Shown in pieces: positions 42,650-61,131 of a stretch of DNA of 64,000 nt. The number at the start of each line of letters is the position of its first letter. The first letter of the stretch is position 1. The notes under the pieces were generated by a model. The model had not been told where the DNA came from and searched no databases. It saw nothing but the letters and a program-made list of their open reading frames with translations. Origin of the DNA: Rhynchosporium graminicola (taxonomy: Eukaryota; Ascomycota; Leotiomycetes; Helotiales; Ploettnerulaceae). Both the position numbers and the translations under genes were made by a program. The stretch covers positions 1,106,704 through 1,170,703 of the forward strand of contig FJUW01000007.1 in NCBI GenBank assembly GCA_900074885.1, given 5' to 3'.

Positions 42650-43183
42650 CTAGACATTTCGCTGCGAAAGTGCCAGTTCCAAAGTGTCATTCTTCAGAGC
42701 TTGGATGATGCTTAATTGATATGCACAAGCATCTTTATCCCAAGTCTCTTTGGCGTCTTTCAATAGTTCTGGGTGCAACACATCTCCTAAGTTGGAGATC
42801 ACTTCCGTCGTTCGTCGCACCTCACCGAAGACCACTGCTTCGATAGACGTTTCCATTGAAGCATCTACACTAAATGCACCGACTTGAAGTTTGATCGTGG
42901 TTATTGGTCTCTGAATAGAGACTGCAAGTTGCAATAGCGCCGAATAACACTCGGTCGCTTGTCGCAAGAGGAGTGTATAAAATAGAAAACGAGACGATAC
43001 CGAGCAGAGTAAACACAAGGAGTACTGGTGCACGACGCTCACAGCTTGGCGAGTAGCTATAAGAATCCGATCTAGGGACTGATCTTGAATCCTAGAAGAG
43101 ACTTGGTGTAGCTGCTCTGAGGCGCGGAGAGCAGAAACAAAGCATGTGCACTCGCCTGAGCCCGCTTCGATTGTATTTGTCAT
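42650..43183 (-). pseudogene. AflR-like regulator C-terminal region, DNA-binding part missing
   Basis: The 177-residue frame has the layout of the C-terminal domain of AflR-type Zn2Cys6 activators: a Cys-rich turn (SLCLLCSVSS, residues 55-64), a hydrophobic helix (LFYTLLL) and the block LQVGAFSVDASME followed by an acidic/hydrophobic helix (IEAVVFGEVRRTTEVISNLG). The same order appears in the complete regulator at 53253-54918. The frame stays open a little upstream of its first Met (to about 43255), but nothing there or up to 43800 contains the CxxCx6C zinc cluster on this strand. The likely reading is a truncated regulator left over from a rearrangement. A short protein without DNA-binding activity, made from the Met at 43183, is possible. 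It lies divergently about 620 bp from the peptide precursor. Confidence 0.55.
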
Positions 43184-43806: not shown

Positions 43807-44163
43807 ATGAAGATATCAGTTATTTTTACCGGGCTCTCACTCGTCACAGCCACCTTGGCTTGGCCGTATGCCATCGGTATGTTAAATCTGCTGCACCTTG
43901 ACGGAATGTTTATAACCGGCGCGAATCTGACACTCTCAGTTACTTCAAGGTCCCTCGGGGAGAAGCGCGATATCGAGTCGGTGGACAGGCGTGATATCGA
44001 GTCAGTTGACAAGAAGCGTGATATCGAAAGCGTGGACAGGCGTGATATCGAAAGCGTGGACAGGCGTGATATCGAAAGCGTGGACAGGCGTGATATCGAA
44101 AGCGTGGACAGGCGTGATATCGAGTCAGTTGACAAGAAGCGCGACATTGAGTCCGTCGACTAA
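43807..44163 (+). CDS. Secreted Kex2-processed repeat peptide precursor (RiPP/KEP type), 8 x DIESVD
   Basis: Predicted precursor of a small secreted or modified peptide. Residues 1-18 form a signal peptide (basic start, hydrophobic core, cleavage likely after TLA). Then comes a short pro-region ending EKR and eight identical hexapeptides DIESVD, separated by RR (five times) or KKR (twice), the last followed by the stop codon. A 63-nt intron (43877-43939, GTATGT donor, CTGAC branch, TCTCAG acceptor) is an exact multiple of three, so the unspliced frame is also open; splicing gives a 97-residue protein and removes 21 residues. By family knowledge, dibasic sites are cut by Kex2 and the basic residues trimmed by Kex1 in the Golgi. 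UstYa-type genes on the right suggest later oxidation. Unlike known dikaritin cores the peptide has no Tyr, Phe or Trp, so it could also be an unmodified signalling peptide. I am confident in the precursor, less so in the modification. Confidence 0.88.
   Translation: MKISVIFTGLSLVTATLAWPYAIGMLNLLHLDGMFITGANLTLSVTSRSLGEKRDIESVDRRDIESVDKKRDIESVDRRDIESVDRRDIESVDRRDIESVDRRDIESVDKKRDIESVD
43969..44160 (+). repeat. Coding tandem repeat, 8 units (24 or 27 nt)
   Basis: Units encode DIESVD plus RR or KKR. Units 3-6 are identical at DNA level (GATATCGAAAGCGTGGAC), units 2 and 7 are identical to each other including their 27-nt KKR spacer version, and units 1 and 8 are the most divergent. Serine is written TCG, TCA, AGC and TCC in different units without any amino acid change. 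Confidence 0.95.
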
Positions 44164-44774: not shown

Positions 44775-45629
44775 TCAGCACAAAGGATATTTAATTGAAG
44801 CTCGGGTGACAGCAGACTCCATCGCAATACCTGCCCCATTACCTGAATGATCTGTAGCATTGATAATCAGTCTTCCGCAATGTGCCGTGTGTTCATAATT
44901 TCGCAGGAAACCGTCCAATTTCCTTCCTTTCTCAACAGCCCGGTGCATCTGCCTCCATGCATAAATGCAATGCCAAACATGATACTCCTTCGTTGCCCAA
45001 AAGGTCCCCTCGTAAAATCCAAGCTCCTCTAATGGAATAAGATGCAGCATCTCAGGCGCCGTTGGTCGTTCGTTGGGAGGGCCTGAGCTCCAATAAAAAG
45101 GCCAAGGAGCATGTAGCGCCATTATCTCTGCATTGAGATCTTCATCGTAGCAGTCCGGATGTTGCCATGAAGTAGTCATAACGTCGAATATACAGCCTTG
45201 CGCAACGGCTTCCGTTGGAGTGTGACCACAGCCTCGGGACCCGGATGCCTCGAAGGCCAAGCAGGAAGAGTCCGGGTTTTGCGGAATCCAAGGTTCATCA
45301 TCGGAATTTGGAGCTAATTGCCAGTCGTGTCGCTGGCTTTGATTGAGGGCATTTCGTAGTAGTAGTCCGCTGATTCCCAGAAGGAACAAGCTGAAGATGA
45401 TGCAGCCTGAACCAAACCCGATGCAAAGGACCAAGAGTCGTTTTAATCTTCTGTATGCATGGGGGTCGGATACCAGATGATTCTCGAACTCAGGCTGCTC
45501 CTGAGGGTCGAAGCTCTCTGCGGCGTTGTGAATAGGGTCGTAATTCTTTTTGGGGGTTGATAGAAGTCTCGCTGCCGCGGTGAGGGAGGAGCCCGAAAAT
45601 GTATCGCACCACTTAGATTTCTGGCTCAT
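44775..45629 (-). CDS. UstYa-like membrane protein, two HxxHC motifs
   Basis: 284 residues from one exon. It has a charged cytosolic N terminus (1-60), one membrane segment (about 64-91, RLLVLCIGFGSG to GISGLLL) and a lumenal domain. The domain begins with CGHTPTEAVAQGC (134-146) followed by IFDVMTTSWQHPDCYDED, continues with an aromatic stretch (PWPFYW) and ends with two HxxHC motifs, HVWHC (217-221) and HTAHC (247-251). In UstYa/DUF3328 proteins paired HxxHC motifs are thought to be the metal/catalytic site, and members oxidatively cyclise or otherwise modify ribosomal peptides in the secretory pathway. This protein belongs to a related branch marked by the CG-x4-EA-x3-GC block, shared with the gene at 55757-56759. 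Its substrate is inferred from position, the next gene being the repeat precursor. The start is the ATG at 45629. It is transcribed divergently from the small membrane protein gene at 45877. Confidence 0.82.
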   Translation of the reverse strand: MSQKSKWCDTFSGSSLTAAARLLSTPKKNYDPIHNAAESFDPQEQPEFENHLVSDPHAYRRLKRLLVLCIGFGSGCIIFSLFLLGISGLLLRNALNQSQRHDWQLAPNSDDEPWIPQNPDSSCLAFEASGSRGCGHTPTEAVAQGCIFDVMTTSWQHPDCYDEDLNAEIMALHAPWPFYWSSGPPNERPTAPEMLHLIPLEELGFYEGTFWATKEYHVWHCIYAWRQMHRAVEKGRKLDGFLRNYEHTAHCGRLIINATDHSGNGAGIAMESAVTRASIKYPLC

Positions 45630-45876
45630 GGTTACAATAGGGGGTTCTGGCCGTTGAAAGCTGGAAAGCTGAAGTATCGTGCACTACCTGCAGAGAAAAT
45701 CCTCAGCCCAAAATAAGGTGAAGAAAATGTCGGAGCTCTATGGGCTTCCGGACTTATGGCTCTTTTGTTACCTGGCTGACTCCTGAAATCTAAAATTATG
45801 TTAAGTTTAAGTACCTCGAATTAGCTAGCAGTGGTCCCCCATTGAAGGGTCCGATGAATTGGTTTTCACTGCAGAT
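45630..45876. promoter_or_regulatory. Divergent promoter region
   Basis: 247 bp between the starts of two divergent genes. No clear AflR-type TCGN5CGA site is visible. There is a purine-rich AAGGTGAAGAAAATG stretch near 45716. The call rests on geometry only. Confidence 0.35.
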
Positions 45877-46188
45877 ATGTATTCCTCCAGAAACACTTCC
45901 CACATGCCGGTTGACACCTTCGACGATGCTATCACAAAACACACCTCTAAAAGAAGCTACCGATTGAGGGTCACCTTTATCCTGTTCACTGTATGGCTCG
46001 CTTCATCGGCTGCTTTTGGAAGCCTGATAGCTGTGTGGCAAACGTCTGATTGTGAGGTGCGAAACGTGAAGATCAGAACTTGGCTCTAACGATCTGCAGG
46101 TGATATCTCATACTCATACAGAGCCGCCTCGACGCAAGGAAAACACTGGTGGAGTGAACTTGTGGCGAGGGATAATCCTAGTTCCTAA
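45877..46188 (+). CDS. Small single-pass membrane protein, possible UstYa N-terminal relic
   Basis: Two exons, 45877-46051 and 46100-46188, joined over a 48-nt intron (GTGAGG donor, CTAAC branch 10 nt before GCAG) give an 87-residue protein. Without splicing the frame also ends quickly, at 46089. Residues about 37-54 are a membrane helix (FILFTVWLASSAAFGSLI) after a basic segment (SKRSYRLR). The tail reads SYRAASTQGKHWWSELV and stops soon after. The arrangement of charged N terminus, one helix and short lumenal stub looks like the front end of a UstYa-type protein that has lost its catalytic domain, but similarity is too slight to be sure. It could be a relic or a genuine small partner protein. 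The start is the ATG at 45877; the frame opens earlier only with a TTG codon. Confidence 0.42.
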
Positions 46189-46826
46189 TTGCTAACTCCG
46201 GCGCTGGGCTCAAGGGCTAAAGGTTGTGGGGGTGTACGTACAAAAGGACAGGAGACCAAGAGGGGTGAAAGAAAAGTGGGGGCCGAATAAAGTTGATGGA
46301 ATTAATGTTTCGGATACGGATTGAAGGTCATGAGACCACAAGGCACACACAACAACATACCGCACGCACTCAGACTTACTTACTCATGCCGCTTTTGCTC
46401 GCTAAGTAATTGAGTTGGAGAAAATACATTTAAGGGTTCAAAAAGCGATTAATTATACTACGAGTCTACCCGAGGTAGAACATCGAAAGAGTATATTCGA
46501 TTCATAGTAATTAAACTCGAATTATAGTCTACATAATAAAATGTATAAATCGTGTGAATACTCATTGCTTTATAGGTAATTAGGTATAGCTTCCAGGAGA
46601 GGAAAACTCGCTTAAATCCAGCTCCAGGTAAAGTAGGGTAGGTAGATACCTCCTGGTGGTCGTAATATGTTCTCTACACTGCGAGCAAGCTAACAGTCGT
46701 CAGACATTTCTGCTTTCAATGGGTCTTCGAAGTCTCTGACCTGCCTTGTGTGAATGGCAGGGCCTATCTGTGGCGTCTCGTGTTCCAGCCATTGATGGCG
46801 GCAGCAAGTGACCGAAGCCGGAGCTC
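46189..46826. other. Intergenic, AT-rich middle
   Basis: Positions about 46440-46570 are AT-rich and resemble RIP-altered repeat DNA (AATTATACTACGAG and ATTAAACTCGAATTATAG), but they match none of the named elements that I could see. No gene is supported. The minus-strand frame at 46700-46888 overlaps the transporter relic. Confidence 0.45.
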
Positions 46827-48094
46827 ATGGGGACGCAGGAATTCGAGGCCGTACATGTCAGCAGAACAATCGGAACAATCATATCCATGATCTTCCTGGC
46901 TTGGGTCCAAGATATTCTGGTATCCTTGACCAGATTCCCGTATGGGAATATAGGTGATCGCGGCTTGGGAACAATCGTTCTGATACTTGCTCTTCTCGGG
47001 GTCTATCCTCTCAATATCTCGATTCAACCTCTTCAGATAGTTCTCGGAACACTTCTTATCGAGAGTTATCCGACCAGCTAACAACAGCAGGCCAGCGTCT
47101 GTGGTAGTCGCATAGTAGGAATTAGAAACATTATTAGATATCTTGCTAGTGTGACAGACTTGTCGTAATTTGCTCTATCGCTTCTTGTCACGCAGTTCCA
47201 AGGTCTCTGATTGATCTCTTCTGTATCATTGGTATGAGCTGTATATTACGACAGAGAGACTACCGCCAGAAGGTATACTACCGATAGATGATAATTTCAG
47301 CTTCTTATTATACTTCAGGTACTTACTTGTTAGGAACTTACAGAATCATGCCCTGGAATATCAGAAGAGTGTGCTATATCTAATTCTGGGCATGGATAGT
47401 ATGGTTTCCTTCTACATTTTACAGCACGACGTGAATTAAGCATGAGCTCTTGAAATCTTGCTAAAGTCTAATTTGTAATATTTATATGAGTGAACTATAC
47501 AAGTTTCTCTGCGGAAAAAATCGTTTCACGGCTTGATATTGAGAAGACGGTAAATTGCTTGTGTCCCGTTACGATACTACGGCTTTCCGTATGCGAGGAA
47601 AAATCAACGAGAGAGGCCTTCGTATTAGTTATTTTGCTAACCTTCTCTTTGCTATAGTTGACCTGTTATCAAATTCGGTTATTCCTTTCGTAGTATCAAA
47701 TACTCGGAGCAGCAATTTGCCAAAAGCAATTCAGGTTATGAGACCCACTGTGTTATAAGCTTGGACAGTATTGCACGTATTATTCGCTACCGTATCATTC
47801 GTATCGATTTTTGTTACTTCTATGATGGGAGAGATTGTCGTTTTGAGTTAACTAGGGATATCTTGGGTATTGATACTCTGGTCTCTATTTGCTATCATTG
47901 GAACTGGGATTGCTACTCTTCAGGATCTTCTTAGCAACAATCCTGAGGATCGAGATGGAGCCGTTATAGACTATGATGCGGGGGATATATCGGGTCTACA
48001 TAGTATCGCTATACCAGCTCCTCAGATTTTGGCAGCTCTAGTGTGTAGTGGGGCTTACTGGTTGGCCCAGTTCTTGAGAAGTTTAGACTCTTAG
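46827..48094 (+). pseudogene. Decayed GPH/SLC45-type sugar transporter
   Basis: Plus-strand pieces fall in the order of one transporter. Positions 46827-47081 read LAWVQDILVSL, GTIVLILALLGVYPLNI and IQPLQIVLGTLL. About 47085-47230 reads QQ-ASV, RIVGIRNIIRYLASVTDL and TQFQGL. Positions 47555-47758 give a membrane frame ending IPFVVSNTRSSNLPKAIQ. Positions 47870-48094 read WSLFAIIGTGIATLQDLL, then DISGLHSIAIPAPQILAAL. The patterns IQPLQ-x-L-RxLI, QFQGL and the AAPQ-like IPAPQILA are those of SLC45/sucrose-proton symporters of the GPH/MFS type. Stops and frame changes separate the pieces and the N terminus is missing, so it is not functional. Many stops are TAA/TAG in AT-rich surroundings, consistent with RIP. 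It lies inside the peptide cluster, between two UstYa-type genes. Confidence 0.7.
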
Positions 48095-48782: not shown

Positions 48783-49960
48783 ATGTTTTCAATTACAGGC
48801 TTCTTAAGATCCAAGCGCGCATACAAGGCACTGCCACACAACGAGGATCTAGATTTGGAAGAGAAGGATATATGTCCATCACCTTTGCTGATATCGAGAC
48901 CAAGAAGCAGCCACTCGTACTTCAATCTTCTTCCATGGGTTCTTTGTGCAGCTCTCAGCGTAGCCCTGATCACTATGTCAATCACTCATCATAAATTTCG
49001 CCATCAGAACACCTACGAGACCGGCTTTGATACCGAACTCGGTATGATTTCTCGTCCCAAAACTCCGCAACATATGCTAAAGCTTCACAGGTCCAGCCAA
49101 TTCCGTACTTGGGCTCACGAAGGTCAAATTCTATGGAGGTGTTCAAATAGACCCCAATGGTACCTATTATCTATCTTCAAACCCGGCGGAGCCAAACTAT
49201 GTTGGACCTTCGAGCCCCGAACTCGATGAGACATGGGACAGGATGCTTTTGCATCGTCAGTACCCAGATTCGTCCTCTATCGAATGACTGGCTTACAATG
49301 TGTGTCAGAACGATATCTGGGACTGACTCCCGAGGAAGTCTCACGGACAGACTTTAAGGTGGATGAGAAAGACTGGATTTTTGACCTATACTGGGTCTCG
49401 TATGTAGCTCTTTCTTGAATTTTGTCCTCGAGAGAGACCAGAGACTGACATATATCATATACTTCAGCCCCAATACTTTTCACAGTCTACATTGTCTTGT
49501 TCGTACTTGCTTTCACCGTGAAATATAAGGTCTAAAGTGAATAGGACTACATGCGCCGCTCTCTTGATAGGGAATATTATACGGACATCAAAGAATTACC
49601 TCCAAGACCGTTTCGAATGACACATAGAATGCATTTAGGTTAGTAAAATTCGAAGTGGCCTGTTTGGAAGATACCTGCACAGTTTCTCGAGGGCTAACAG
49701 CATTTTTAGATCATTGCATAGAAGCACTTCGTCAGACTCTAACATGTTCACTGGATATGACCCCTGTTCCCCGACCATGGATACCTCAAGCCGGTATATA
49801 TCATGCGGATATTGATCAGTGGCACACTTGTAGAGACTACAGTTCGGTGAGATCTTGGATGGATTGGAGGAACCGTGATGAGAAAGATGCTGATTTCATC
49901 AATGTTACCCATCGGTATAAAGACCGTGATGCATTGTACGCAAAGTTCAACCCTTGGTGA
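48783..49960 (+). CDS. UstYa family (DUF3328) peptide-modifying oxidase
   Basis: Six exons (48783-49041, 49091-49255, 49309-49399, 49468-49498, 49545-49638, 49710-49960) give an unbroken 296-residue protein; read without introns it looks frameshifted. It has one membrane helix (about 46-66), the family hallmark YETGFDTELGP (78-88), an EPNYVGPSSPELDETWDRML segment, RYLGLTPEEV, then HSLHC (177-181) and HLDHC (212-216). The tail has the usual SLDMTPVPRPW and HTCRD blocks. UstYa proteins form cross-links or hydroxyl/halogen modifications on peptides in the secretory pathway, with the two HxxHC motifs as presumed active site. The donors of introns 2 (GTCAGT) and 4 (GTTCGT) are unusual and intron 4 is only 46 nt, so those borders are less certain, but the family alignment fixes their phase. 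The substrate is probably the DIESVD peptide, by position. Confidence 0.88.
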
Positions 49961-50195: not shown

Positions 50196-51878
50196 CTACG
50201 CGTCTTCTACTTTAACCATTTGCCAACATCTCGCCTTTTCATGGGATCTCGGCCAGAACTTTGTTTCGAAAACCTTGCCCTCCCGATTAACAACAACCTT
50301 CATCTCGGCTGTAAAGTTTTCTGCACACCTCCAAAAATGAGAACTCCATATAATCCTGTCCCCGTCCACCAACCCTGCTGCCATAGCCCGGCTTCCGTCC
50401 TTGATTGCCCTGACCATGCCTTGCTCAAATGACGCCCTGTCCATCCCAAGATCGAGAATCTCTTGATCACATTGGACCAGTCGATGGCTTTTGGCCCCGA
50501 ACACTTCTACCGGAAGCAAAATCACCTCCCCACGATACATATCTTCATAACGCCTTCTGGCGTCACCTCCCATCAATGGCGTCAGCAAATCGAGCCACTG
50601 ATTGATACCATGAGGTTCCCCCTGCTTCTTTTTGATCGCAAGTCTTTTGATTGCCAGATCCTCAATTGGCCTTTGCGGTGGCGTTGTTTTCTCGACAAGC
50701 TTCCGAGCTGCGAAATCTGTCCCAATGACGAAAGCCCATGCTCTGGTTTCAACTTGCTCGATAGCATAGGCATCATCTTTGGCAGCCAGCTCCAAGAGTG
50801 TATTCAGAGGGTATTCCAAGTACGGGCTAGTATAGTACTTCATACAAAGCATACTCAAAGTCTCCTGAAAGTAGTGACCTGGACGAAACTGGTTCGGTGG
50901 TCGGAATGGAAGATAGATTGAAAGTGTATGCTTTATCCCTTCGAAAATCCAGTCAATGTCTGGATTCGTGACCGAGGGACCAAGAAAGCTGTGTACCATT
51001 TCGTGTGCCATTCGTCTCACTAAGTCGTAGTCGTGAACTTGAGCGATTTGATCATCGTAGTCAAATATATGGCTGCGGACGAAAGAGGTTCCTCCAAAAG
51101 CCTTTTTTGCCGAGTTGTACCTCACGAAGTGACGGTAAGGGTTGCTTACCGATGGGGAATCGTTGAAGAAACGAGATACCTTCAAGAAAAACGCTTCATG
51201 AATTTCTCTGATGACCTCGACATTTGGTGGAAGTTTTCCAAACCAGTAGAAACCATAAGAAGCCGAGCTTGGTTCTACCGCTGGCGTAGCTGGAGTACCG
51301 TGGACTGGCCCAACCATATACACAGAATCACCCAACAATGAGGCCGGTCCAATCTTCTCAACAGGTCCAGGGCCTTCACCAAAGGTCCAAACCGCTCTCG
51401 TGCCCTCTGGGGCTGCAGCTAGATTCCACTCAACCACTAAGCGAAATGTTTCTTTTCCGGCTGGGATAGCAACAAAGGAGAGGCCTGATCCGATAAGACC
51501 ACCTTGGTCAGGTCTCAAGTCTGTCGTGGGCCCATCATCGAAGAGCGTCTCAGAAACCAAAACCTCTGCTTCATACGATATCTTTACTCCACCTGACGTA
51601 TCGCGCAAAGCAATCCACTCGCAATTGGCACTGGAGTGCACGCCTTGGCGACGAACAGGCAAAACACCCACATCATCGATTGTCTGCGAAAGATCGCTAG
51701 CTAGAGATGTAGAGATTTTACTGTTGATAGCAGAAGGAAAGGTAAGGATGGTCTCTCCAGCCTTGAACTGCAGAGATTCGATGTGCATCTTGACGTGAAG
51801 TGACTTGACATTGTGCAACAGGTCGTATCTTGGTGTAATTGTTACGTGGATGCTGGCCATTGTTGTTGAGTCCGACAT
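50196..51878 (-). CDS. M61-type metallopeptidase with PDZ-like C terminus
   Basis: One exon, 560 residues from the ATG at 51878; the frame extends ten codons further but only to a TTG. The first half is a beta-rich domain as in M61 (glycyl aminopeptidase) proteins. The zinc site is HEMVH (292-296) followed 17 residues later by the third ligand Glu in DWIFEG (E313), the gluzincin arrangement with the W-x-x-EG typical of M61. The C-terminal 100 residues contain GMVRAIKDGSRAMAAGLVDGDRIIW, split here as GMVRAIKDGS and AGLVDGDRII, a PDZ-like ligand-binding fold that M61 proteins often carry. There is no obvious signal peptide or membrane helix. It stands between two UstYa genes and is intact, so a role in trimming the peptide released from the precursor is reasonable but inferred. 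A housekeeping role is the alternative. Confidence 0.82.
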   Translation of the reverse strand: MSDSTTMASIHVTITPRYDLLHNVKSLHVKMHIESLQFKAGETILTFPSAINSKISTSLASDLSQTIDDVGVLPVRRQGVHSSANCEWIALRDTSGGVKISYEAEVLVSETLFDDGPTTDLRPDQGGLIGSGLSFVAIPAGKETFRLVVEWNLAAAPEGTRAVWTFGEGPGPVEKIGPASLLGDSVYMVGPVHGTPATPAVEPSSASYGFYWFGKLPPNVEVIREIHEAFFLKVSRFFNDSPSVSNPYRHFVRYNSAKKAFGGTSFVRSHIFDYDDQIAQVHDYDLVRRMAHEMVHSFLGPSVTNPDIDWIFEGIKHTLSIYLPFRPPNQFRPGHYFQETLSMLCMKYYTSPYLEYPLNTLLELAAKDDAYAIEQVETRAWAFVIGTDFAARKLVEKTTPPQRPIEDLAIKRLAIKKKQGEPHGINQWLDLLTPLMGGDARRRYEDMYRGEVILLPVEVFGAKSHRLVQCDQEILDLGMDRASFEQGMVRAIKDGSRAMAAGLVDGDRIIWSSHFWRCAENFTAEMKVVVNREGKVFETKFWPRSHEKARCWQMVKVEDA

Positions 51879-53252
51879 TGTACCTGTGTCATGAAGCAAA
51901 AAAACCAAGATCCATGAAGTTTACGAAGAAGATAGCTGTGATATCGAGACCAGCACCATCCCACCCTCCGGCAGAGCTAAGTACCTTCCGCGAATTCCTA
52001 CCGGAGAGCAGTACCCGAAGGCACGATTAGGTGGCTATATTATGGCAATACGAAGTTAACACTTGTACCCGAGTATTCGTGATTCCGCCTTTTTGTGAGA
52101 ATGCCTCCCTTGAATCATGCCGAAGACTTCCGTGTAATCAAAGGCTCTATCTCCTCAGCTGCTGCCAGAATTACAGTTCTCCCATCACCCAAAAAGCAGC
52201 CAATCATTTCCCTACAGGCAGGATCTAACGTTGTTGATTTGATCGCTTAGAGGAGCATGACAGCAGCTGAGGGGAGGGGATAAGAGTTCTACGACGCGTT
52301 ACTAGCACCAAACCATGCTATAGCGAAGGTTTAGAAACTACTGGAATAGCACGCCAGATACAAGGAAGATGCCTATATGGGACTAAGTCAAAAAGAGGCT
52401 TTTGTGCTCTAAAAATTTATTCTTTACACTCGGGAGGTGAGAATTTTTGATGTTTAAAGAGTAGGGAACAGCAGAAAGGTATTGAAAGAAGTTCACAGCG
52501 TATCAAGTCTGGTTGTATTGCGGGCTAACATGGGTGATCAAGAAGTAGCTGCTCATACTAGAGAAAAGTACGTCTAGGGACTTGGACCTTTGTAACTAGC
52601 AGAAATGAAAATACCAGACATTTACTATATGGTAGCATACTAAAGATTGAATATTGATTTTCGGTACCTATTTCTCGGTGTGCCCCACCTGGATTCGGCG
52701 GTCTGATTAAGTTGAAAGTTTGAAGGTGAAAGGTCAAAGGTTACAAAAAAAAGGGAAAAGGTAAAAGGTAAAGGTAAAAGACAGAAGGTAAAGGTCCATT
52801 CTCACCTCCTCGCGAAACGAGTCCAGTTATTCCGATGGCTGTACTGTGCTGCATTGTGATAGGATGTAAGTGTAGGTTACAGGCGAGTACGAGTAATTGG
52901 TGATGCCGATTGATAAGGTAGGTACGAACTGGCCATAAGAAAGAGCTTGGCAAACGAACCGAAAGGACGATGGAACCCTGAGATACAAATATCTGGTACA
53001 CATGGAATTCAACACTGGCCACCATCACGACTCATGATATCACTTAGTACTGGATAATCTTTGCAGATCACTAAAGCGACGTCCAGCTTAGTCGAGGGCC
53101 ATTGGTGAGAGGTATAGCGTGCCATGGTCTGTCATTGTGGGTTTCGAGGTGATATGCGGGTGTGTTGTACCTCCGTAGTATAAAACAGCGTTCCTCTCCT
53201 CCATTCCTCCAGAACACCGACCTTCCAGCTTTATAATTTGGAGAAAAGATTC
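51879..53252. other. Divergent intergenic region before the activator
   Basis: 1.37 kb between divergent peptidase and regulator genes, without a supported gene. Frames at 51839-52228 and 52741-53028 have no family features. Its right half contains a purine-rich repeat (52721-52796). It is likely to hold both promoters. Confidence 0.5.
52721..52796. repeat. Purine-rich AAAGGT repeat tract
   Basis: Irregular repeats of AAAGGT/AAAAGGT with an A run in the middle, all purine apart from single T or C bases. It lies about 460 bp upstream of the activator ATG and may be a promoter element or simple-sequence expansion. Confidence 0.6.
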
Positions 53253-54918
53253 ATGGACGAGTCTGAGTCTCGGCGCGAACAACGGCCAGAAGGCGACAAG
53301 CAAAGCGCCAGAGGCAGAGGGTCCTCCGTCCTGGTCACAGCCTGTGATCAGTGCTACCGTTGCAAAGTTCGTTGCTCTGGGCAGCGAGACGCTTGCGACC
53401 GATGTGTTCGGAACAACAATACCTGTACCTACAGCCTGGGTAGACCGCTTGGTAAGCCGCCTAAGAACGGGCGAGGCAGAGCGCCGAAGAAGAGAAACCA
53501 CAGCCCCCGGCCGAAGAGGCTCAGCCGGTCCAACGACACTCAAGCAAGTTCGAGCTCGAGGGGGAAGCGCCCCCAGCTTGATGGTGTCTGTATCGGTGGT
53601 GCTGGTGGTGATAGTGAAGTATCAAAGTTTTATCCTCTGGTGAGAAGTCAGATTCTTCCGTACTTTTACCGCGTACCTAGTACTTCCGTGCAGTTACTTC
53701 GAAGTATATCTTCTATGCACTCTGTCCCGCTCCGCCGCTCCCCCACACCCCCTACCCAGGTAGCCTTCCTATATGCCAACCACTGATTAAGCTTTGGCTA
53801 ATTCTCCGTATCGGTAGGACGCGGGCACTTCCGGGACCAGCAGAGGCGAGAGTAGCGATCCAATCGCAACGGAGGTCTCGCACCTCCCTAGCATTCGGAG
53901 GGATGATGATGGTGATATTGACGGTGATGGCGATATTGATATTGATGGTGCTGGTGATAATGCCCCAAACCCGAACCCCGAACTTCGTGTTCTAGCTCCG
54001 CGGTCAATGACCACAGCCGCAGCCGATGTGGCCTTGCATGGATTCGAGCTGCTGGAGATGCCCCCCCTAGATATGGAGATGCATGTGGATGTGGACATGA
54101 ATGTGGATCTGGATCTGGATCTAGAAGGGGCAGAGATGAGTTTCGATCCCAGCCTTTTCGGCTACTTTCTGCATTCTCCAAGACCTGACGACCCCCTTGT
54201 GGCTTCGACTTCCACTTCGACTTCGACTTCGATTTCGACGACGGAGGAGTTATCGCAGGCAGAGGATGCGAATACAAATGTAAATGCAAATGCAAATGCA
54301 AATGCTGCTCTCATCACTCCTCCCATTTCTCTCTCATCTGCTGGTGGTGTAGACAGATCTGGGTCTGGTCCTACCCAGACCCAGCTGCCCCCCGATCTAA
54401 TGCGCCTCATCTCGGATCTCTACTCAGCGCCGCACTCCACCAACCCCGACCAGCGTTTTGACAGGACCCTTCTTCTGGCTCGACAAGGGCTGGATGTCGT
54501 GCGCTCGAGCATACCCGCTTTGGCAGCCCCGGACTCCCCGAACTCCCCACTCTTGTGCGTGATCATTGTACAGCAGATGCTGGCAATCTACAAGTCCCTT
54601 CAGTCTCGGATTGCCTCGCGCCTCACGTCAAGCAATGTGTCTACCATCGAGAAAGATCTTCAAGAGAGTGTCTGCGTGGGGACCTTCGAGGTAGAAGGCG
54701 TCGAGAGTCGGTGCCATGTCCTGAACGCCATTGTCAATTTGGAAGTGGTGAAGCTGGAGAGGGTGATGAAACAGCTGGCCAAGCAAGCGGAGGAATTGAG
54801 CAAGGATGGAAATGAAAATGGGAACTTAGCACACCTGATCTTGGTGGCTCTCAAGGCATGTTCATCCACGAATACAAAGGACGAGTACAGGTGCAAGTAC
54901 CCGTACAAGTACAAGTAG
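53253..54918 (+). CDS. AflR-like Zn2Cys6 transcriptional activator
   Basis: Two exons (53253-53639 and 53818-54918; intron of 178 nt, GTGAGA donor, GGTAG acceptor) give 495 residues. The zinc cluster is Cys 31, 34, 41, 48, 51 and 58 (C-x2-C-x6-C-x6-C-x2-C-x6-C) in the AflR-like context ACDQCYRCKVRC. It is followed by a Gly/Lys/Arg linker (GRPLGKPPKNGRGRAPKKR). The middle is low-complexity: Asp/Ile/Gly repeats, a VDVDMNVDLDLDLEG run, a Ser/Thr run and Asn-Ala repeats, encoded by hexanucleotide arrays. The C terminus has the AflR-type helices (LLCVIIVQQMLAIYKSL, then VGTFEVEGVES). Proteins of this type bind promoters within their own secondary-metabolite cluster. It is probably the cluster activator. 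The start is the ATG at 53253; the frame opens at a TTG 15 nt earlier. The last residues are a Lys/Tyr repeat (YPYKYK). Confidence 0.85.
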
Positions 54919-57384: not shown

Positions 57385-58219
57385 ATGTCTAAAACGAAAG
57401 AGAAATACTCGCGTCTTGGGAATGAGGATCTTGAGGAGGAAATGAGCTACCAGCCAGCCGAGTCTTCTCGCATCTCTCGTGTCAGAATGCTTTATCTTGG
57501 CAGTGCCATAATTTTTCTCATATTGCTGGGAACCTCTGCACTGACTTTGCTCCCTAAGTGGAGGCCGATGAGGAATGGCCGCTGGGATCCTCAATCGATG
57601 CTTCCAACGAGTAAGTTACGCCTCCAAAAGAAAGATGCGGGCTTGGATTATTGACATAATAGCTTTCTAGTCCCGACAGTCTCTCTTGCCTTTCATATGA
57701 CCAAAAAATATGGAACGTACGACGAGGAGGGCAATCGGGCTTGGGATGAGCTTGTGCCAGGTATGTTAAGCAACTCCCGATATCTTCGAAATAAGCTGAA
57801 AGGGATACTGCGCAGTGAAACATGGCCTTTTTGCTCTTGCAGACCCCTACCGGTACGATTTGCAGCCTGGACATGAAGACAAAAACGACGAGAATGTAGC
57901 GTGGTTTGGGGTTGCAGTCTTCCACCAGCTCCACTGCCTGCGGGCACTAAGAGACACTGTCCGCCAGCTGAAGACAGGACAACCAGCGAGAGATTGGGGT
58001 GGACCAGATCACCTTGAACACTGCTTGGATTATATACGACAAGGTCTCATGTGCTCTGCCGATACAACCATTGAATGGCCTGTGTTCGTGAAGAACGAAT
58101 CTGGAAAAGATGGCCCTATCACGGGAGAAGGTATCGAGCATCAGTGCAGGGATTGGAACGCGGTTCGCGCGTTTGGGATGAGGAGTGGAGAGCTCATAGA
58201 TAGTCTCGGAAAACAGTAG
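57385..58219 (+). CDS. UstYa family (DUF3328) peptide-modifying oxidase, short form
   Basis: Three exons (57385-57610, 57671-57760, 57816-58219) with introns of 60 and 55 nt (GTAAGT and GTATGT donors) give 239 residues. It has a charged N terminus, one membrane helix (about 33-56, LYLGSAIIFLILLGTSALTLL split by eye) and a lumenal domain with a YGTYDEEGNRAWDELVP segment, FHQLHCLRALR (HQLHC 142-146), DHLEHCLDYIRQGLMC (HLEHC 171-175), ADTTIEW and HQCRDW near the C terminus. These are the standard UstYa blocks. It is shorter than the protein at 48783 and lacks the YETGFDTELGP hallmark, so it represents a different UstYa branch. Clusters of this type usually carry two or more UstYa genes. The protein is intact, and its function on the DIESVD peptide is inferred from location. 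Confidence 0.9.
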
Positions 58220-58913: not shown

Positions 58914-61131
58914 CTATAATATCCATTCATAAGCACGGCGCAAAGGAGACTTCAGACGATCCTCCTCCTTCTCAATAGTTCTGATCTCTTTGTGTCCCTT
59001 TGAAGTACTCCTCCCGTGGATAAGATCAATCTCTGCTGCTTTCACGAACTTCACGAAGTTAGTTACTGGACTGCAAAGGAATATGGCAAAAAATGATACT
59101 CACAGATGTCCTCTTGACAAGCTTCCATCCCAAGAAACACCCACCATAGATTCCAATACTCAGGTAGTTTGCAAAGAATGTAGCCGTGTCCCATTGTCCA
59201 GTGACAAATACGCTGAAACCGCTCAGGAAAGCGAGGATGTAACAGCAGAACATGCCATACCACCTGGGTAGACATTAGCCCAAGAACTTTTAATAAAATT
59301 AATTGAGAACTCACGATCCATAAGGCAACCATTTCGATCGGTAGGGCAAATCGTCAGGCTCCATACCGTTTGCCCTGAGAGCTGCGCGAAATCTGAGATG
59401 ACTAAGGCATATCGAGCCCCAATTCAGTAAAGCACCCTGTGCGGTTAATGCACTCAACCAGAGGAAAACCTTCGAGGCACCGGAGCTGATGGATAGATAG
59501 GCGAGTGCTCCGATGGCCAACGTGAGAGCAGCGGCGACCCATGGAAGCCCGAATCTATTGACCTTGGTAAAAATCTTCGGGAACCGTCCGGAAAGTGCCA
59601 TGGAATATAGAGTTCGGGCCGAAGCATACGCATATGAGTTTCCAGCACTCCACGCAGAGACCAGAATGACAGCGTTGATGATGTGTGGAAGTGTTGGGAT
59701 ACCGGCATTTCTGAAGGCGATAACCTTCAACAGTTTAGTATTGTAAAAACACGATGTCTTAGGATCGGGACCAGGATCAGCGAAGAAAATTGATCCTGAT
59801 CCGAGATCACTGAAACTATGAGGGCTGGAAAACATACATATGGCGAACCCGATGCATCGTCGGCGCTGACAAGAAGAGGATCTGCGCTCGAAACAAGCAT
59901 GCCAACAAGAATGACACCGAGGATGTCTATTGTGATTAGATGATATCACTCATGAATAGGGGACAGACATACAGAAGAATAGAATACGAAACCATACTTT
60001 CTTGACAACTCGAGGAATCTCGCGAACTGGGTTTTTTGTTTCTCCAGCAACCAGAATGACACACTCGGCTCCAGAATAAGTATACGCGGCGTTGATAATA
60101 GCTGAGAGAACGCCAAGGAAGCGTCCTCCAAGTCCAGCGATTCCGGAATACTGAACCCAAGGTCCCTATTTCACTATGAGCTACGTGATCGAGGCAACAT
60201 ACCAAAATTACTTACAGGATTGTTCCAGTACGTGAAGCCCAGCCGTGAGCCTGTGGGAGCTCCTCCCAGATCTACGACCACAGAAGTAACAACAATGACA
60301 ATGAAGGCCAATATCTTCATTATACTGCAGTAAAATTCACTCTCTCCGTAAAATCTTACAGGTGCTGCACTATACAGCCATTATATCAGTGACTTTCGAT
60401 GTTAATAGTAAGACAACAAAGACGATCAATATTTGCCGATATAAGTGGTGGTTGAGGAAGGATGTAGTGTCGCTTACATAATTACAATACTCGGTAGGTA
60501 CAGAATGGAGATCCATCCGGCAGGTGACTATTTCGATTAGCTCCAGGTCTTGTTATTGACATGGCATTTGTGACGAGGAAGGGCTTACCACTCCATTATC
60601 TGGCCAGTACTGAAGCACAACTGCACAAGCAGACAGCTCTGCTGCGAAAGAGATGGCATTTCCGTAGGCGTAATTGATGCCCACACAAAACCCGAGGGCT
60701 GGATCAACGAATCGACCCGCAAAGTGAGGAAAGGAGCCCGAGCCGGGGAACATCGAGGCCATTTCTCCCAGAGACTCCATCACCCCTATCATTGCCAGAC
60801 CCAAAAGCAGAAAGCCGATCAGAAGACCTGCGGGACCAGCTGTGGTAAGTGCATAGCCTGTTCCGAGCCATAGACCAGTTCCGATAGCTTCAAGTAAATA
60901 ATCGTGAGCGAAGTTTCGCCAACGAATGGATCAAAAATTCTCACCTCCTCCAATGCCGATCATTTGCAAATGGCGATGCTTCAAAGCACGATTCACCTCT
61001 CCAACGCCATCGTCGACACCGGTAGTAAATCCGTTTGATCCGGATGATATCGAACGAGGATGAGGATTCCGAATGTCCTTGGGTCCCGATGCACTCTCTT
61101 CGTCGCCTTTGTGGATGAATTGGTTCGACAT
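58914..61131 (-). CDS. Amino acid permease (YAT/APC family), intact with 8 introns
   Basis: Nine exons on the minus strand (60945-61131, 60589-60887, 60478-60527, 60216-60369, 59973-60165, 59838-59926, 59315-59724, 59104-59263, 58914-59048) keep frame throughout and give 558 residues, the usual size. It has a hydrophilic N terminus ending LKHRHLQMIGIGG, then AIGTGLWLGTG (63-73), ESLGEMASMFPGSGSF, the NPVREIPR segment, INAVILVSAWSAGNSYAYASARTLY and a charged C terminus. It should be a proton-coupled plasma-membrane amino acid importer. It is next to the peptide cluster but is a common family; a role in uptake of precursor or export is not supported. Exon 3 is only 50 nt, and the last acceptor (TTCGTGAAG) was chosen because the nearer CAG sites break frame. 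Neither affects the family call. Confidence 0.88.

Follow-up and report, generated by a model that had tools for sequence, protein, structure and literature searches.

The peptide ring of ustiloxin, phomopsin and asperipin-2a is closed via Tyr (PMC7329392; PMC9233826), and ring links between Tyr and Ile and between Phe and Leu are described for epichloecyclin and victorin, respectively (PMC9233826); five dikaritins are counted in PMC10512285. A preliminary description of the locus treated here, according to which characterised dikaritins make use of an aromatic side chain, is thus borne out by the Tyr or Phe that these sources give for ustiloxin, phomopsin, asperipin-2a, epichloecyclin and victorin. 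The same description regarded as new any action on residues of the aliphatic or acidic kind. There, precedents exist: in phomopsin, gene inactivation assigned dehydro-Ile, dehydro-Asp and dehydro-Pro to the UstYa proteins PhomYc, PhomYd and PhomYe, respectively (PMC10880069), and the DUF3328 protein CctR is reported to carry out copper-dependent hydroxylation of an aliphatic C-H in cyclochlorotine, holding two coppers and requiring the His and Cys of its motif for activity (PMC12435403). Given these phomopsin and CctR precedents, UstYa action on the core peptide considered below is less foreign than was first held.

Repeat precursors of the KEP type have been delimited in more than one way. 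The definition of Le Marquer 2019 comprises a signal peptide and at least three repeats between KR or RR sites that make up at least 15% of the protein, with units of 3-8 residues recognised as a size class (PMC6339444), while the screen of Umemura 2020 considered annotated proteins with at least three repeats of at least 8 aa between Kex2 sites (PMC7329392). According to the latter survey of 1461 strains, Tyr occurs in 65.6% of the repeats of 1758 DUF3328-linked precursors, with a Trp content rate of 20.5% and His-His in 5.7% of repeats near DUF3328 genes. About a third of these repeats are without Tyr, and Tyr-free cores beside UstYa genes are therefore common; the survey places Rhynchosporium in types G-3 (His-His) and G-6 (Tyr).

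What is unusual at the present locus of Rhynchosporium graminicola is a core, DIESVD, without any Tyr, Phe, Trp or His. Our full-text literature searches, which took in titles and the starts of abstracts and had most subscription journals outside their coverage, returned no aromatic-free dikaritin. The window analysed is a 64,000-nucleotide stretch (contig C75, 1106704-1170703) of a 55.3-Mb assembly in 121 contigs.

The DIESVD precursor

The open frame that carries the array (Table 1) is very probably interrupted by an intron. The 63-nt stretch bearing the marks of one keeps the frame, making a 97-aa precursor likely, and a genome search returned the precursor as a single copy, appearing as two exon matches. 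Residues 5-18 are hydrophobic in a hydropathy scan and, by inspection, an Ala lies ahead of the presumed signal-peptide cleavage site; the stop codon follows directly upon the last DIESVD unit. Aromatic residues (F7, W19 and Y21) occur in the pre-core part, and none in the core. Translation with the intron retained gives, at the exon 1 end, a single YAIG, which is the core of ustiloxin B; this was taken as coincidence. Among 3472 candidates drawn from 5.8 billion proteins, none proved related to the precursor at E<=1, in a search that the repetitive query may hamper; as the window's own gene was likewise missing from the output, the precursor gene is probably unannotated in the protein collection.

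Splitting the array at its dibasic sites yields eight exact DIESVD units and no variant, each preceded in the frame by EKR, DRR or KKR, and Tandem Repeats Finder independently detected the array (43961-44123 and 43981-44123). The eight identical cores between dibasic sites that the preliminary description had reported are thereby confirmed, as are its claim of a core without aromatic residues (F, Y, W and also H are all absent) and its [M+H]+ of about 677.30 (computed, 677.2988). With eight units covering 48 of 97 residues, the array falls within the KEP repeat definition of Le Marquer 2019; with units of 6 aa, it falls outside that of the Umemura 2020 screen. The units start with DI right after the dibasic site and the Ste13 signature XA/XP is absent, which places the array outside the alpha-pheromone type.

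At the DNA level, the eight copies exist in four versions, with 7 of 18 columns variable and at least nine substitutions, including Ser codons of the TCN versus AGC kinds. None of these changes an amino acid in the coding frame, whereas in any of the remaining five frames the copies encode three or four distinct peptides. The probability that nine random substitutions would all be silent ranges from ~4e-7 without transition bias to ~6e-6 at a bias of 4, with substitutions treated as independent. Because the changes are silent, and in the coding frame alone, the DIESVD peptide looks to have been kept by selection. The repeat precursor at 43807-44163 is real, of Kex2-processed build and probably in working order. 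The opposite reading, in which this tandem repeat is non-functional or goes untranslated, has in its favour a location on the margin of a block rich in AT and in repeats and the absence of a precursor relative from the searched protein database, but we give it next to no credence in view of silent-only variation confined to one of the six frames, a signal-like start, an intron-like stretch with a branch site and open oxidase genes all around.

Table 1. Positions of the precursor and of the genes around it, numbered from the first letter of the window
Feature	Position	Strand	Details
KEP precursor, probably two exons	43807..44163	+	open frame; 118 aa unspliced
Signal-peptide-like N-terminus, MKISVIFTGLSLVTATLA	43807..43860	+	hydrophobic stretch 5-18; cleavage site by inspection
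Probable in-phase intron, 63 nt	43877..43939	+	GTATGT...CTGAC...CAG by sequence inspection
Eight DIESVD units	starts 43969, 43993, 44020, 44044, 44068, 44092, 44116, 44143; span 43969..44160	+	RR or KKR spacers
UL1, UstYa-like oxidase 1, 284 aa, one exon	44775..45629	-	one hydrophobic helix; HVWHC(217), HTAHC(247); no Pfam match
Scattered transporter-like open pieces	45829..48091	+	no Pfam match
U2, UstYa oxidase, 296 aa	48783..49960	+	HSLHC, HLDHC; Pfam UstYa E 1.2e-34
U2 introns, five	49042-49090, 49256-49308, 49400-49467, 49499-49544, 49639-49709	+	exon model by eye
Possible zinc metallopeptidase	50196..51908	-	HEMVH, WIFEG; weak PDZ-like C-terminal matches; start codon uncertain
Zn2Cys6 transcription factor	53238..54918	+	DNA-binding part 53337-53435, Zn_clus E 1.2e-6
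UL2, UstYa-like oxidase 2, 294 aa	55757..56759	-	intron model 56025-55908 (by eye, unconfirmed); HRAHC, HVTHC; no Pfam match
U3, UstYa oxidase, 230 aa	57385..58219	+	intron models 57611-57670, 57761-57842 (by eye, unconfirmed); HQLHC, HLEHC

Oxidases and other neighbours

Four oxidase genes, all open, full length and starting within 14 kb of the precursor, were found downstream of the array. Two of them match Pfam UstYa (PF11807; cut-off, 25 bits), U2 with 120.5 bits and U3 with 90.7 bits (E 1.6e-25) over part of the profile. The exon model of U2 agrees with a same-length R. graminicola protein, WAI453_001015, to which it is identical at 295/296 residues, and U2 is thus kept between Rhynchosporium isolates. 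The nearest neighbour of the precursor is UL1, which converges on it at a distance of 0.6 kb and shares all 284 residues (100% identity) with the Rhynchosporium agropyri protein RAG0_10291; in a Pfam scan, neither UL1 nor UL2 matched any family, PF11807 included. The earlier placement of the precursor "beside UstYa genes" holds with a refinement: Pfam-UstYa genes start 4.6 kb (48783) and 13.2 kb (57385) away, but the gene adjoining the precursor is one that PF11807 does not recognise. Each of the four proteins displays one strong hydrophobic stretch near its N-terminus (hydropathy scan) and two HxxHC motifs whose starts lie 29 to 37 residues apart (motif scan).

UL1 and UL2 are 24% identical over their alignment (38% over about 100 residues). 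The genome holds nine UL1 matches, itself and UL2 included, seven of which begin no more than 5 kb from a Pfam-UstYa hit, with places this close to any of the 31 such hits making up 0.4% of the genome; the corresponding binomial figure is 3e-16, which treats the matches as independent although those on the same contig are not. The two exceptions lie on C47, 18 kb from a UstYa hit, and on C35, a contig without one. Outside the window, members of the family were seen on contigs C47, C53, C64 and C35. Eight relatives of UL1 (50-64% identity) were recovered, one of them from Scytalidium lignicola; in these and UL1, the motif H.WHC is found in 9/9 and the second motif reads HTAHC in 8/9 and HTAHF in one. 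Aligned to UstYa with hhalign, the UstYa-like family gave a weak match (probability 5%, E 0.0073) in which both HxxHC motifs were nonetheless aligned. The UL1 profile gave weak trefoil matches alone against the PDB (E 0.41 or worse), and a UL1 structure prediction from 9 sequences reached a pLDDT of 43. A zf_topless match of one UL1 relative, P0003 (E 0.00036), was set aside as a chance effect of Cys/His richness, its 20.5 bits being below the cut-off of 27. The UL proteins would be candidate partner oxidases of UstYa.

Window positions 1-42000 are AT-rich (GC 0.21-0.35), and the gene cluster begins where GC goes up. A reverse-transcriptase RNase H remnant was seen near 37.5 kb, where two single minus frames were scanned; such a remnant in an AT-rich block is what mutated repeats would lead one to expect. 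A 177-aa frame at 42650-43183 (-), with no Pfam match over the cut-off, is presumably similar to AflR-type regulators in their C-terminal half. The open pieces between UL1 and U2, which we take to resemble a sugar/H+ symporter-type transporter, were not joined into one frame; an 84-residue piece has no second copy in the genome, and the region is either decayed or else intron-rich.

Downstream of U2, the HEMVH and WIFEG motifs of the next frame would suggest a zinc peptidase, possibly of M61-like type. Peptidase_M61 (PF05299) was matched neither by this frame in the Pfam scan nor in the genome search; its protein gave weak PDZ matches in the PDB (E 0.18-0.21), weak sub-cut-off matches to SprT and RseP in NCBIfam, and a pLDDT of 34 in a structure prediction from one sequence. 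A paralogue on C34, in three exon pieces of 34-42% identity, has no Pfam family either. We infer that the Zn2Cys6 gene comprises the frame 54007-54918 in addition to the DNA-binding part. Past the cluster, an amino acid permease gene lies in exon pieces at 59314-60930 (-). Elsewhere, the Kex2 P-domain has one match in the genome.

Other repeat precursors of the genome

Six-frame scanning for Kex2-site arrays over about 10 kb or more around the 31 UstYa hits (17 neighbourhoods) revealed a repeat precursor in 4/17, with cores of DIESVD, DSDAATAYGAD (L028), DIALGDYYE-like (L027) and HHTAGQIAAK (L030) type; this is a lower bound, since the scan takes no account of introns, requires three copies and may miss end-cut arrays. 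A strict pass gave two of the four, and a looser pass gave all four plus one false match. A Gly-rich protein in L039, flagged as a repeat precursor, was rejected as it has no Kex2 array. Two of the four cores contain Tyr, one contains His-His, and DIESVD contains neither.

The DSDAATAYGAD precursor (L028 7856-8968; C62, about 1124355-1125467) bears 20 perfect units between KR sites plus one degenerate unit, and sits between UstYa hits as a Tyr-core dikaritin candidate. Its 20 exact copies exist in 12 DNA versions with 10/33 columns variable, a variation that is silent by construction as exact matches were picked; the 21st unit differs at four residues. A dibasic context of Asp-site-Asp is common to this precursor and that of DIESVD. 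At L027 6693-7058 (C18, about 415192), imperfect DIALGDYYE-type repeats lie 1.6 kb from a UstYa hit and 5.4 kb from a tyrosinase, giving a classical-looking dikaritin cluster; among three copies, 11/30 bases and 3/10 residues vary. At L030 1160-1994 (C66, about 235659), a precursor of His-His repeats (HHTAGQIAAKKAKGGKR) was seen about 2.7 kb from UstYa hits, two copies of its unit varying at 8/54 bases and 0 residues. The G-3 and G-6 entries for Rhynchosporium in PMC7329392 may correspond to L030 and to L027 or L028.

None of the 22 Pfam tyrosinase hits in the genome lies on C75, which sets the DIESVD locus apart from the ustiloxin/phomopsin type. The contigs of the DSDAATAYGAD and His-His precursors have no tyrosinase hit either.

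The hexapeptide and known peptide systems

With confidence a little above even, we read the locus as a dikaritin-like cluster in which copper UstYa enzymes would oxidise Kex2-processed DIESVD at its Ile, Val, Asp or Ser residues. The precursor would enter the secretory path, where Kex2 would cut after KR/RR and Kex1 would trim the basic residues to release eight DIESVD copies; the sites and repeats are observed, and the cutting is what they suggest. In the lumen, membrane-anchored U2 and UL1 (perhaps also U3 and UL2) would attack C-H bonds in the side chains of aliphatic and acidic residues, using two coppers coordinated by HxxHC(x)nHxxHC. It is their position in the cluster that suggests DIESVD as a substrate of these oxidases. 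Desaturation or hydroxylation (-2 or +16 Da for each event) of Ile, Val or Asp would be the likeliest outcome, with an aromatic-free ring closure possible and less likely. DIESVD would be the largest possible core, as the flanking Asp may be removed, a step in which the metallopeptidase-like protein of the cluster may have a part.

Several lines of evidence favour oxidation within a dikaritin-like cluster: (i) the eight perfect Kex2-bounded units, with silent-only variation in the coding frame; (ii) the Asp-site-Asp context common with the Tyr-core DSDAATAYGAD precursor; (iii) the Pfam matches and both HxxHC motifs of U2 and U3, U2 being kept between isolates; (iv) the conserved UL motifs and the proximity of UL matches to UstYa in 7/9 cases; (v) the absence of a tyrosinase hit from C75, as opposed to the tyrosinase 5.4 kb from the Tyr-core precursor on C18, a contrast that is weak because the DSDAATAYGAD contig is also without one; and (vi) the UstYa precedents on Ile, Asp and an aliphatic C-H. 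It is weakened by the lack of a precursor relative in the search, by a nearest Pfam-UstYa gene 4.6 kb off with transporter-like fragments between, by the weak hhalign match of the UL family to UstYa, the zinc-finger match of P0003 and the UL1 pLDDT of 43, by an M61-like peptidase label that comes from short motifs and has no Pfam M61 match, and by the by-eye exon models of U3 and UL2.

The foremost rival, which we consider unlikely though a serious contender, is that the hexapeptide stays linear and unmodified and acts, once secreted, as a signal or an effector, with the oxidases nearby serving another purpose. KEPs away from DUF3328 genes are the majority (6120/7878, 78%) according to PMC7329392, several KEP peptides are described as linear or minimally modified (PMC9769878), six-residue units belong to the recognised size class of PMC6339444, and DIESVD is without the residue types that serve the aromatic side of ring closure in the dikaritins cited above. 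However, UL1 lies 0.6 kb away and is one of four full-length oxidase genes that start within 14 kb, the scan (which ignores introns and needs three copies) revealed no further repeat precursor across the window and the 10 kb that follow it, and pheromone-annotated KEPs are reported to be almost never near DUF3328 genes (PMC7329392).

Given the precedents on Ile, Asp and aliphatic C-H, the cautious prediction is a DIESVD that has undergone desaturation or hydroxylation, and the bolder one is a ring. That paired copper oxidases, UstYa and UstYa-like, would cross-link this aliphatic/acidic/Ser hexapeptide into a ring without an aromatic residue we hold to be decidedly unlikely.

A further rival, and a very unlikely one in our estimation, is that the oxidases serve another precursor, either a single-core peptide or the pre-core segment WPYAIVTSRSLGEKR, with the DIESVD units as spacers or a separate product. 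This segment contains W19 and Y21, and the repeat scan is blind to single-copy precursors; yet the segment occurs once as against eight cores, and spacers would need no silent-only change across eight copies.

Should UstYa proteins act on an aromatic-free core, as in the oxidation that we favour, their ring-closing role (aromatic in the cases cited) would be separable from plain C-H oxidation. With UstYa/DUF3328 proteins recently shown to be copper enzymes (PMC12435403), it is their substrate limits that are at stake. The locus also points to two blind spots: the screen that yielded 7878 KEPs needs repeats of at least eight residues in annotated proteins (PMC7329392), whereas DIESVD has six and its gene did not turn up in the protein collection searched, and the UstYa-like family adjoining UstYa genes escapes Pfam.

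Ultimately, the locus has in common with the dikaritins (ustiloxin, phomopsin, asperipin-2a, victorin and epichloecyclin) a precursor that is putatively secreted, Kex2-bounded repeat cores and a UstYa/DUF3328 cluster. The C6 regulator described for the ustiloxin cluster (PMC4740483) has its counterpart in the Zn2Cys6 gene, and the peptidases described for dikaritin clusters (PMC9233826) have a candidate in the metallopeptidase-like gene. Of the dikaritin traits, a KEP-type precursor clustered with UstYa homologues is present and an aromatic residue in the core is absent; known dikaritin cores form their ring through Tyr or Phe, whereas DIESVD is free of aromatic residues and of His and is encoded on a contig without a tyrosinase hit. 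Linear KEP peptides (alpha-pheromones, Rep1, candidalysin and Agaricomycete KEPs) involve a signal peptide, repeats and Kex2/Kex1 processing (PMC9769878), and the DIESVD precursor compares with them in its repeats, its signal-like start and its predicted processing. Unlike DIESVD, pheromone-type KEPs are reported to be almost never near UstYa genes (PMC7329392), and DIESVD is without their XA/XP Ste13 signature. The closest parallels in chemistry are with phomopsin, in which altered Ile, Asp and Pro are assigned to UstYa proteins where DIESVD offers Ile, Val and two Asp, although phomopsin additionally bears a Tyr-Ile ring (PMC7329392), unlike the aromatic-free DIESVD; and with CctR, whose layout of a single membrane helix and HxxHC(x)nHxxHC (PMC12435403) is matched by U2, U3, UL1 and UL2.
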